Positions 19,690 through 61,325 of a stretch of 64,000 nt of DNA are shown here, piece after piece; the stretch's first letter is position 1, and each line of letters begins with the position of its first letter. The translations under genes and the position numbers were made by a program. The DNA comes from an uncultured Pelagibacteraceae bacterium (lineage in GTDB: Bacteria > Pseudomonadota > Alphaproteobacteria > Pelagibacterales > Pelagibacteraceae), in NCBI GenBank assembly GCA_902612605.1, contig CACMDY010000001.1, forward strand, positions 1 to 64,000, given 5' to 3'. The notes beneath the pieces were generated by a model, which was not told where the DNA came from, did no database searches, and worked only from the letters and a program-made list of their open reading frames with translations.

Positions 19690-19766
19690 TGGTGGGCCCG
19701 CCAGGACTCGAACCTGGGACCAATACATTATGAGTGTACTGCTCTAACCAACTGAGCTACAGGCCC
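19690..19766 (-). tRNA. tRNA with CAT anticodon, probably tRNA-Ile2 (lysidine type)
   Basis: A complete 77-nt cloverleaf with encoded CCA: acceptor GGGCCTG/CGGGCCC, D-arm GCTC-AGTTGGTTA-GAGC, anticodon loop CTCATAA, T-arm with canonical TTCGAGT loop, discriminator A. CAT can be Met or, after lysidine modification by TilS, Ile. The 5' half, GGGCCTG TAGCTCAGTTGG, resembles alphaproteobacterial tRNA-Ile, so Ile2 is preferred, but elongator Met is not excluded. It is not initiator-like because the acceptor begins with a G1-C72 pair. Confidence 0.9.
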
Positions 19767-19826: not shown

Positions 19827-19901
19827 TGGTGGGCCGTGTTGGTTACGCTCCAACTACCCCTGCAATGTCAATGCAGTACTCTACTATTGAGCTAACGGCC
19901 C
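19827..19901 (-). tRNA. tRNA-Val (GAC) with aberrant D- and T-loops
   Basis: A 75-nt cloverleaf with encoded CCA and discriminator A. Acceptor GGGCCGT/ACGGCCC, anticodon stem CTGCA/TGCAG with loop TTGACAT (anticodon GAC), and T-stem GTTGG/CCAAC are all perfect; the D-stem GCTC/GAGT has one wobble. The loops are odd: the D-loop AATAGTA has a single G instead of G18-G19, and the T-loop AGCGTAA replaces the near-universal TTCRANN. Paired stems argue for selection to fold, but elbow tertiary contacts would be altered. Its first base is the last base of the rpoD stop codon. Confidence 0.85.
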
Positions 19902-21724
19902 TAACTCTCTAGGAAGCTTTTTAATTGTTTAGATCTACTTGGATGTTTTAATTTTCTTAATGCCTTAGCTTCTATTTGTCTAATTCTTTCCCTCGTCACT
20001 GAAAATTGAAGACCAACTTCTTCCAAAGTGTGGTCTGTATTCATGCCTACTCCAAATCTCATTCTTAAAACTCTTTCCTCACGAGGTGTCAAGGTTGATA
20101 AAATTTTTGTGGTTGCTTCACTTAAATTTGATTTAATTGCTTGTTCTAAAGGCGCTAAAGCTTTTGTATCCTCAATGAAATCTCCTAAGCTGCTATCTTC
20201 TTCATCTCCAACTGGTTTTTCTAGTGACACAGGCTCTTTTGATATTTTAAGAACCTTTCTAACTTTATCTAATGGCATTCTTAATTTTTTTGAAAGCTCT
20301 TCTGGTGTAGCTTCTCTACCAAATTCACTTAAGATTAATCTTTGAGTTCTTACTATTTTATTAATTGTCTCTATCATATGAACTGGAATTCTAATAGTTC
20401 TTGCTTGGTCAGCTATTGATCTTGTAATAGCTTGTCTAATCCACCAAGTTGCATATGTAGAAAATTTGTAACCTCTTCTATATTCAAATTTATCAACTGC
20501 CTTCATTAAACCAATGTTTCCTTCTTGAATTAAATCTAAAAATTGTAGCCCTCTATTTGTATATTTTTTTGCAATTGATATAACCAATCTTAAGTTTGCC
20601 TCAACCATTTCCTTTTTTGCAATTCTAGATTCTTTTTCTCCCTTTTGAACTCTACTTACAAGTCTTTTATATTCTGTAACAGAAATACCTAATTTATTAC
20701 TAATTTCAATTAATCGATCTTTAATATTTTTGAATTCATTTCTGTATTTTTGAAAGAATTTTTTCCAAACTTCATTTGTATCTAAAAATTCTTTGAGTTT
20801 CGGATTTATTTCGTTTCCTACATAAAATTTTAAAAATTCATCTCTCGAAATTTTTGATTCCAAAGCATGTCTTAGTAAATTTCCCTCAAGAGATATAATT
20901 TTTTTATTTTCTATATAATGTTTTTGCACTAATTCTTCTAAAACTGATGGAGACAGTTGTAATGATTTTATATTTTCCAAAATACCATCGACGATTTTTT
21001 TTAAATTTTTATCTTTAGATGGAGAAAACTTTGTAGAATTAAGTATACATTCAAGTTTTTCTTTGTGATATTTTATTAATTTATTGTACTCTTTAGTTAG
21101 ATTGTGGACAGTTTGCAAAACTTTAGGTTTAATTTCTGTTTCCATAGCAGCCAAAGTTGGATTGAATTCGTCATCGTCAGAATTATTGTTTTCATCTGAA
21201 TTTTGATCATCATCTTGTTTTTTTTGTTTTGAGTTATTTGACTCATCATCGTCCATGTAATTTGTATCAATATCAATTATTTCTCTTACTAAAATTTCAT
21301 CATTTTGTAATTTTTTATCCCATTCAAAAAATTGTTGGGCAGTTATTGGACTTTGGGATAAAGCATTTAACATTACATCTTTTCCCGCTTCTATCCTTTT
21401 TGCGATTGCAATTTCACCTTCTCTTGATAAAAGCTCAACTCCTCCCATCTCTCTTAGATACATTCTTATTGGATCGTCACTTTTCTCTAAAGTTTTACCT
21501 TCCTCCTTAGATGATGAGTCTTTTTTTCTTAAAATTTTATAATCTGATTTTTTTTCAACTAAGATAATATTTTCGTCCAGAATGTGAATTAATGCCTGGG
21601 CTAGATTTTCACTTGAAAGATTTCTTTTTCCTAATGATTTATTTAATTCTTCATGAGTTATAAATCCACGATGGATTCCTCGACCCATTAATCTAGCAAA
21701 TGATTTAGTAATTATTCGTTCCAC
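19901..21724 (-). CDS. rpoD: Primary sigma factor RpoD (sigma-70)
   Basis: Directs RNA polymerase to housekeeping promoters. The 607 residues contain region 1.1 near the N-terminus, region 1.2 ([11 protein letters not shown]), an acidic non-conserved stretch with [16 protein letters not shown], region 2 with [39 protein letters not shown] split by the conserved core, [10 protein letters not shown] for -10 recognition, and region 4.2 [24 protein letters not shown] for -35 recognition. Last protein gene of yqeY-dnaG-rpoD. The TAG stop shares its G with tRNA-Val. Confidence 0.98.
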
Positions 21725-60170: not shown

Positions 60171-60209
60171 TAATCATAACAATTATCAATCAATAAATTC
60201 AATCACAGG

Positions 60210-60238
60210 TTGACGTAGACTCCTGACTGGAGTCTAAT
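60210..60238 (+). promoter_or_regulatory. Candidate ccrM promoter containing an inverted repeat with two GANTC sites
   Basis: TTGACG (60210-60215) and TCTAAT (60233-60238) are spaced by 17 nt. The spacer and start of the -10 are filled by an inverted repeat: TAGACTCC (60216-60223) and GGAGTCTA (60229-60236) around TGACT. Each arm contains one GANTC site (GACTC at 60218-60222, GAGTC at 60230-60234), the methylation target of CcrM. Transcription would start near 60245, about 7 nt before the ATG. Confidence 0.65.
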
Positions 60239-60251
60239 TCAAAAATATAAA

Positions 60252-61325
60252 ATGATCACTTCAGACATAAAAAATAAAATTATTAATGGAGATAGTATTA
60301 AGGAATTAAAAAAAATTCCGGCTGAAAGTTTTGATCTGATATTTGCAGATCCACCTTACAACCTTCAACTTAAAAAAAAATTAAGTCGACCTGATAGATC
60401 TAAAGTCGATGCTGTAGACGATGCGTGGGATAAATTTGATAGTTTTAAAAGTTATGATGAGTTTTCAGTTCAATGGCTTAAAGAATGTAAAAGAATTTTA
60501 AAAAAAAATGGATCTATATGGGTTATAGGAAGTTATCATAATATTTTTAGAGTTGGTTCAAAAATGCAAGATTTAGGTTTTTGGATACTAAATGATGTGA
60601 TTTGGAACAAAAATAACCCTATGCCAAATTTTAGAGGAACACGTTTTACGAATGCGCACGAAACACTTATATGGGCATCGAAAAGTGAAGGCTCAAAATA
60701 TACTTTTAATTATCAATCACTTAAATGTTTAAACGATGATCTACAGATGAGATCTACATGGAATTTACCTATATGTAATGGAAAAGAAAGACTTAAAAAT
60801 AATGGTAATAAAATTCACTCAACGCAAAAGCCAGAGTCTTTATTGCACAGAATTATATTAGCATCGTCTAATAAAGGCGATTTAATATTGGACCCGTTTC
60901 TCGGTACGGGAACAACTGCTGTGGTTTCAAAAAAGTTAGGTAGAAATTATTTTGGGATAGAAAAAGAAAAAAACTATTTTGAAGCTGCAAGTAAAAGAAT
61001 TAAAAATACAAAAATTATAGAAGATGAATATTTAGATACTATAAAAAATAATAGATCCAAACCAAGAGTGCCATTTGGATCTTTGGTTGAATTAGGAATT
61101 ATTAAACCTGGTACTGAAATTTTTGATCAAAAAAAACAAATCAATGCGAAAATTATGATTGATGGTAGTATAAAATATCGGAAATCAGAAGGATCAATTC
61201 ATAAAGTTGCTGCACAAATATTAGGTGCTGAGAGCTGTAACGGTTGGACTTTTTGGTATTATAAATCAGGTAATTCACTCAAACCAATTGATGATTTGAG
61301 GCAAAGACTAAGGCCAACTACTTAA
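60252..61325 (+). CDS. ccrM: Cell-cycle DNA adenine methyltransferase CcrM (GANTC)
   Basis: Methylates adenine in GANTC and links replication to gene expression in Alphaproteobacteria. The 357 residues have the beta-class order: catalytic DPPYNLQ (33-39), then VDAVDDAWDKFDSF, WVIGSYHNIFRVG, MPNFRGTRFTNAHETLIWASKS, HSTQKPESLLHRI, and the SAM loop LDPFLGTGTTAVV. The C-terminal part (about 265-357, VPFGSLVELGIIKPG) is the extra domain found in CcrM and HinfI relatives. Overlaps the convergent monooxygenase by 4 nt. Confidence 0.96.
   Translation: MITSDIKNKIINGDSIKELKKIPAESFDLIFADPPYNLQLKKKLSRPDRSKVDAVDDAWDKFDSFKSYDEFSVQWLKECKRILKKNGSIWVIGSYHNIFRVGSKMQDLGFWILNDVIWNKNNPMPNFRGTRFTNAHETLIWASKSEGSKYTFNYQSLKCLNDDLQMRSTWNLPICNGKERLKNNGNKIHSTQKPESLLHRIILASSNKGDLILDPFLGTGTTAVVSKKLGRNYFGIEKEKNYFEAASKRIKNTKIIEDEYLDTIKNNRSKPRVPFGSLVELGIIKPGTEIFDQKKQINAKIMIDGSIKYRKSEGSIHKVAAQILGAESCNGWTFWYYKSGNSLKPIDDLRQRLRPTT

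Follow-up and report, generated by a model that had tools for sequence, protein, structure and literature searches.

The tertiary pairs between the D-loop and the T-loop of tRNA are called invariant in the accessible part of one article (PMC6337575), and pseudouridine 55 (Psi55) is called universally conserved in the accessible parts of two reviews (PMC7912444 and PMC4810234). According to the available text of PMC4052509, the non-proteinogenic tRNAGly species of staphylococci have UU or CU at positions 18 and 19, together with A49-U65 and A51-U63. In tRNAPyl and in mitochondrial tRNAs of type II, either the G18/G19 and TPsiC motifs or the D-T contact is missing, as stated in the accessible part of PMC7609411. 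The available part of PMC7566577 describes eukaryotic tRNAAla species having R15/A48 with A54/A58 and a purine at position 60, and says that purine-purine 15/48 pairs of that kind are not observed in bacteria. In the literature searched, where subscription papers were mostly out of reach, no description of a tRNA with A18/G55 was found, and a term search of the accessible part of a review of natural non-canonical tRNAs (PMC7609411) found no mention of G55.

The tRNAVal(GAC) of an uncultured Pelagibacteraceae bacterium is best understood as one instance of an alternative elbow that recurs and is compensated, not as a tRNA with a weakened elbow. It resembles canonical bacterial tRNAs in its loop lengths, G19-C56, R57, paired stems, and mutually matching D- and T-loops. 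In contrast to their G18-Psi55 and T54-A58, it has A18/G55, A54/U58, and A60, and no U that could become Psi55 or T54. The original prediction drew a parallel with the staphylococcal tRNAGly species, with which this tRNA shares an altered position 18 in a bacterial tRNA. The parallel is not supported by the marks in the available part of PMC4052509, since the present tRNA has A18 G19, G49-C65, and U51-A63; G19 is kept and the contact appears to be compensated. It has a non-canonical elbow like tRNAPyl and the type II mitochondrial tRNAs, but here the contact would be replaced one for one, and the 7-nt D-loop, G19, and C56 differ from the 5-nt D-loop of tRNAPyl without G18 G19 and TPsiC in the accessible part of PMC7609411. 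The likeness to eukaryotic tRNAAla lies in the changed 54/58 pair, the purine at 60, and the purine-purine Levitt pair A15/A48 (window positions 19887 and 19855). However, the present tRNA has A54/U58 instead of A54/A58, and the accessible part of PMC7566577 reports no alteration at 18/55.

The tRNAVal(GAC) gene behind rpoD

The window is the whole stretch of DNA analyzed, namely the first 64,000 nucleotides of contig CACMDY010000001.1 (assembly GCA_902612605.1). The tRNAVal(GAC) gene that had been proposed from the letters is real; ARAGORN called it at 19827-19901 on the minus strand with an encoded CCA, and the Rfam model RF00005 also called a tRNA here, with 53.6 bits, the lowest score among the 31 tRNA matches of the genome. 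The perfect stems and the encoded CCA were confirmed (7/7, 4/4, 5/5, and 5/5 pairs), U8, A14, and U33 are present, and the loops read AATAGTA and AGCGTAA as predicted. On the minus strand, the D-loop A14 A15 U16 A18 G19 U20 A21 lies at 19882-19888 (A18 at 19885 and G19 at 19884, as aligned to AATGGTA of canonical relatives), the anticodon GAC (34-36) lies at 19867-19869 in the loop UUGACAU, as called by ARAGORN and read in the sequence, and the T-loop A54 G55 C56 G57 U58 A59 A60 lies at 19843-19849 (G55 at 19848 and C56 at 19847).

Immediately upstream is an ORF of 607 amino acids on the minus strand (19901-21724), named rpoD for a sigma-70 type factor from its sequence. The next gene downstream is a canonical tRNAMet(CAT) gene (19690-19766, minus strand), found by both ARAGORN and Rfam RF00005. 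Thirty rpoD loci were fetched with their flanks; 25 of them hold the tRNAVal(GAC) gene, which is directly behind rpoD in 22 and elsewhere near rpoD in three (G037, G248, and G591). In the 22 adjoining loci, the distance from the rpoD stop codon to the tRNA ranges from an overlap of 1 nt to a gap of 17 nt. The last base of the rpoD TAG stop codon in the window (19901-19903) doubles as G1 of the tRNA, and RNase P processing would thus cleave the rpoD mRNA within its stop codon. A regulatory coupling through this overlap was considered but discarded, because three of the 22 loci (G000, G118, and G233) show it, whereas 1 to 17 nt separate the two genes in the rest. Elsewhere in the window, there is an Rfam bablM sRNA match at 60187-60255 on the plus strand (46.4 bits).

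The altered elbow bases

The same gene in genome G571 (locus L407) served as the canonical reference, with the D-loop AATGGTA, also found at locus L070, and the T-loop UUCGAUC. Compared with the G571 loops, the window tRNA has A for G18, A for U54, G for U55, U for A58, and A at both 59 and 60, while G19, C56, and R57 are the same. The altered conserved positions are 18, 54, 55, 58, and 60; A18/G55 stands where a canonical elbow has G18/U55, A54/U58 stands where it has U54/A58, and G19/C56 is present as usual. The original prediction held that the D-loop lacks the G18-G19 pair. This is true of G18, which is replaced by A, but G19 is kept, since the D-loop differs from AATGGTA solely by this one change. 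The implied loss of the G19-C56 contact was not borne out either, because both bases are present. Having no U at 54 or 55, this tRNA cannot carry T54 or Psi55. The other 30 of the 31 tRNAs of the genome all have unaltered elbow bases.

It is very likely, as far as comparison of sequences can tell, that this is a working elongator tRNAVal(GAC) whose D-loop/T-loop contact would be kept by compensated alternative tertiary pairs. In the contact geometry that I infer, A18 and G55 would touch as a pair inside the normal L-shaped fold and replace G18-Psi55, perhaps via N6 and O6. The unchanged G19-C56 pair would close the outside of the elbow as usual, and A54-U58 with A60 would take the place of T54-A58 with a pyrimidine at 60, shaping the T-loop. 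With such a geometry, a normal fold and activity at GUU and GUC codons would be expected of the tRNA. The valine identity elements are A35, C36, and A73; the window tRNA has the anticodon GAC, and A73 is present in all of the 37 distinct SAR11 tRNAVal(GAC) sequences collected. The tRNA would be charged with valine and would read GUU and GUC; these two account for 610 of the 988 valine codons (62%) in 57 ORFs of the window.

Coupled switching within SAR11

Each of the 37 distinct SAR11 sequences has 7/4/5/5 pairs; 17 carry A18/G55, 20 carry G18/U55, and none has a mixed elbow. Positions 18 and 55 thus switch as a unit, in agreement with the earlier claim that both sides of the elbow have changed together. 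Within the A18/G55 set, the acceptor, anticodon, and T stems vary with compensation, while the loops are kept. Of the 22 loci with the tRNA right behind rpoD, 15 have A18/G55 and seven are canonical, which indicates that the two elbow forms are orthologs by position. Since the canonical and rewired forms have stems in common (CTGCA with GTTGG; TTCGC) as well as the rpoD locus, the elbows were switched in place at least sometimes.

The distribution of the elbow states was then overlaid on a single-gene tree of RpoD from 70 genomes (44 with A18/G55, 23 canonical, and three with no known state, leaving 67 with a known state). Parsimony gave 14 changes of the elbow state, at least nine of which are forced by well-supported branches. 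Shuffled labels gave 19.5 changes on average, so the clustering of the elbow state on the tree is only mild. Identical tRNA sequences across species may reflect gene exchange in part.

Spread across phyla and viruses

A motif scan found the A18/G55 elbow in at least 119 stretches in genomes and at least 120 in viral contigs, and 221 of the 250 motif matches listed have 20 or 21 of the 21 stem pairs. Carriers were seen among other bacteria, in some archaea, and in many viral sequences. The named genomes with the motif fall under at least 15 NCBI phylum names, or at least 11 if the Patescibacteria names are pooled, and these may include prophage-borne copies. At least 69 tRNAPhe genes of Pelagibacterales have the motif. 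T-loops with G55 C56 were found in viral-contig tRNAs of 18 of the 20 amino acids, with none for Ser or Trp among the matches listed, and viral contigs with a tRNAVal carrying AGCGTAA were found at L310, L362, and L272. No A18/G55 was found in phages T4 and T5, whose tRNAs (8 and 25, respectively) all have U54 and U55. Thus, the annotated T5 suppressor tests are uninformative on A18/G55. A BLAST search of phages with the tRNA pair returned similarity to tRNAs in general and was set aside.

Several other tRNA arrangements were seen in the loci fetched. Streptomyces tRNAs with a near-constant body (CGACGTG or nearly so, the anticodon stem CCGGG/CCCGG, and the T-loop GGCGGAA or similar) and varying anticodon loops are found at L151, L162, L189, L194, L206, L217, and L222, with three copies in a row at L189. 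tRNAGly(TCC) genes of Streptomyces and Streptacidiphilus (L160, L167, L175, L176, and L198) have a T stem with two of five pairs as cut, as if they had one extra base, and at L160 four of them stand in tandem. The first 38-40 nt of tRNAVal(TAC) recur as exact duplicates at a distance of 1.6 to 9 kb from the complete gene in G097:C5, G096:C2, G079:C9, and G086:C12, as if left by elements inserting in tRNA genes.

A survey blind to the elbow bases

Since the motif scan itself selects the 18/55 combination, I wrote a structure-only finder that uses the stems, U8, A14, U33, five T-stem pairs, and G53-C61 and ignores the elbow bases; these requirements exclude any tRNA whose T stem is bulged or whose A14 is changed. 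It was run on 390 loci (2.35 Mb) and gave 622 unique tRNAs, from which 139 motif-selected sequences were removed for the unselected counts. Among the 193 unselected tRNAs with 7-nt D-loops, 130 have G18/U55, 55 have A18/G55, six have G18/C55, one has A18/C55, and one has U18/U55. The A18/G55 share is not a prevalence, since the loci were fetched for holding tRNA matches, many with this elbow. By source, A18/G55 accounts for 45 of 144 viral, 9 of 33 cellular, and 1 of 17 SAR11 tRNAs. The association between 18 and 55 has a Fisher p of 9e-37 in the viral contigs and 3e-8 in the cellular loci, both uncorrected for relatedness; for the unselected SAR11 tRNAs alone, with their single A18/G55 case, p is 0.06.

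In terms of 18-19/55-56, the same 193 tRNAs are GG/UC in 126 cases, AG/GC in 55, GG/CC in six, and six single cases. Single tRNAs with C19/G56, A19/U56, or U19/G56 were seen among the surveyed loci, and the 19-56 pair may also switch.

Covariation was analyzed in 59 non-redundant sequences (less than 85% identity) with 7-nt D-loops and 5-nt variable loops. By corrected mutual information, 18-55 is the 16th column pair, ahead of 1-72, 49-65, and the Levitt pair 15-48. The covariation of 18-55 is comparable in strength to that of some stem pairs.

These results bear on a different reading, in which the rewired gene spreads whole, by phages or recombination, so that the joint change at 18 and 55 reflects tRNA swaps with the loops hitchhiking and no need for them to match. 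Identical 75-nt genes in species whose RpoD sequences differ by 10% or more, the viral contigs with AGCGTAA, and the scattered elbow state on the RpoD tree all speak for such spread. Nevertheless, the canonical and rewired SAR11 forms share stems and the rpoD locus, the 18/55 match holds across the 59 non-redundant tRNAs of many kinds, and swapping alone leaves the absence of mismatched elbows unexplained. As a full explanation, whole-gene spread is therefore unlikely.

It is still less likely that positions 18 and 55 no longer touch, A18 being merely a stacked purine and G55 neutral. Such a loss of contact predicts that the mismatched elbows A18/U55 and G18/G55 are common, and neither was found in the 193 unselected tRNAs with 7-nt D-loops. 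A crude rule applied to 288 unique tRNAs with longer D-loops gave GG/UC in 212, AG/GC in 58, GG/CC in seven, GG/GC in four, and others in seven; the four cases of the mismatched type count against strict coupling, as far as this rule can be trusted.

Positions 54, 58, and 60 and the Levitt pair

The change at 18/55 is accompanied by variation at 54/58. Among the 17 A18/G55 sequences of SAR11 tRNAVal(GAC), 54/58 is A/U in 14, G/G in two, and U/A in one. A60 is present in all 33 unique tRNAs with A54/U58. With G54/G58, natural sequences have A60 in 53 of 55 cases and G60 in the other two, while U54/A58 goes with a pyrimidine at 60 in 503 of 513. C54-C58 was found in three cases. Positions 54/58 are thus linked with position 60. 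Suppressor tRNAs with unusual D and T loops have been selected and may bear on A18/G55; Zagryadskaya, Doyon and Steinberg reportedly obtained in 2003 suppressor tRNAs selected in E. coli with G54-G58 replacing U54-A58. Those suppressors are products of laboratory selection, whereas G54/G58 is found here in natural sequences as well. As for the Levitt pair, A15/A48 is present in 14 of the 17 A18/G55 sequences and in 4 of the 20 canonical ones.

Conservation of the gene and its role

Of the 399 sampled genomes of the window genus, 298 match the tRNAVal(GAC) query, about 250 of them with the identical 75 nt, a count read from the E-values of the full-length identical match; the roughly 150 matches listed in the genus search are all 100% identical. 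Not all close relatives have canonical loops, then, a pattern that the original prediction would have taken as a sign of local decay or a sequence error, and a local sequence error was rejected on this conservation across the genus. The canonical tRNAVal(TAC), examined for comparison, is identical in 70 of 121 cases, so the rewired tRNAVal(GAC) is kept about as strictly. An order-wide pattern, in which A18 and A54/U58 were fixed, 55 was left free, and at most one mismatch was allowed, matched in 171 of 297 genomes, namely 168 of 198 in the genus, two of four in genus g4, one of 29 in genus g5, and none elsewhere, by my own count. G55 is present in every match among those listed.

Is the altered elbow a mark of a specialised role? 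The original prediction had raised a non-translational function, in which a weakened elbow keeps the tRNA off EF-Tu as in the staphylococcal glycine tRNAs. It fits this idea that the tRNA is the sole one of 31 with altered elbow bases and that tRNAVal(TAC), which is present elsewhere in the genome as the earlier note had asked to be checked, could in principle read GUU and GUC. However, the coupling and covariation counts point to an elbow that is compensated and not weakened, the staphylococcal marks (UU or CU at 18-19, A49-U65, and A51-U63) are absent, and the related elbows occur in viral-contig tRNAs for most amino acids and in the tRNAPhe of Pelagibacterales. Nothing found points to a non-translational role, and I regard it as highly improbable.

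The genomes in which the gene seemed to be missing were informative about redundancy. A loss of tRNAVal(GAC) was considered because the strict pattern missed 30 of 80 genomes, and it was not upheld. The complete genome G406 has a canonical copy that the strict pattern missed, and the other closely checked miss, G221, is an assembly with 26 tRNAs and without a full match to rpoD, the usual neighbour of this tRNA. Thus, although tRNAVal(TAC) exists, neither case showed the loss that a dispensable, redundant gene might be expected to show. At L072 (G202), just the 3' part of the rewired tRNAVal remains, from about position 30, with other sequence upstream; this may be an insertion, decay, or an assembly fault. 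That the gene is decaying or relaxed and redundant has a negligible probability, since its lowest covariance-model score among the 31 tRNAs and the partial copy in G202 are outweighed by the about 250 identical copies, the compensatory stem changes, the copy in G406, and the state of the G221 assembly.

The loss of truB

A tRNA without U55 does not offer a site for Psi55. The gene for the Psi55 synthase, truB, was surveyed as well. The TruB_N domain had no match in the genome of the window, and the control matched in 14 of 14. No truB over the cut-off was found in 198 genomes of the genus or in 37 genomes of genera g5-g7, while it was found in 2/2, 3/3, and 4/4 genomes of genera g2-g4, respectively, and in 42 of 53 genomes of family f2; group sizes were counted from the order-wide pattern table, a sample of the same size and handles. 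In g3 and g4 (G406 and G476), truB is flanked by rbfA and rpsO. In G000, G012, G452, and G587, rbfA and rpsO adjoin with truB missing; near 336 kb of G000:C1 (L547, 2358-2982), the two genes are 10 bp apart. The truB-less genera form one clade on the RpoD tree (support 99/93), and the loss was thus probably one deletion.

Judging from gene content, the loss of truB may have removed one constraint on U55 and thereby facilitated the switch to A18/G55. The link to the elbow switch is weak. Only one of the 37 genomes of the truB-less genera g5-g7 matches the A18/G55 tRNAVal pattern, and two g4 genomes (G476 and G514) have A18/G55 while keeping truB; the loss was therefore neither sufficient nor necessary.

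Implications

On balance, I lean towards the view that A18-G55 would be a second natural solution for the tRNA elbow, one that viruses and members of at least 11 phyla use. It would make a tRNA independent of Psi55 and, where position 54 is A or G, of T54 as well. A clean deletion of truB would have opened the way in SAR11, where tRNAVal(GAC), repeatedly, and tRNAPhe would have crossed over.

The recurrent matched replacement is comparative evidence for the G18-Psi55 contact, which has been described as invariant. tRNA finders can under-score or miss such genes, as ARAGORN gave no tRNAVal at L081 or L085. These tRNAs offer naturally occurring elbow variants with which the requirements of RNase P, EF-Tu, the ribosome, and modification enzymes could be tested. 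For the SAR11 clade without truB, the finding raises the question of how it manages without TruB.
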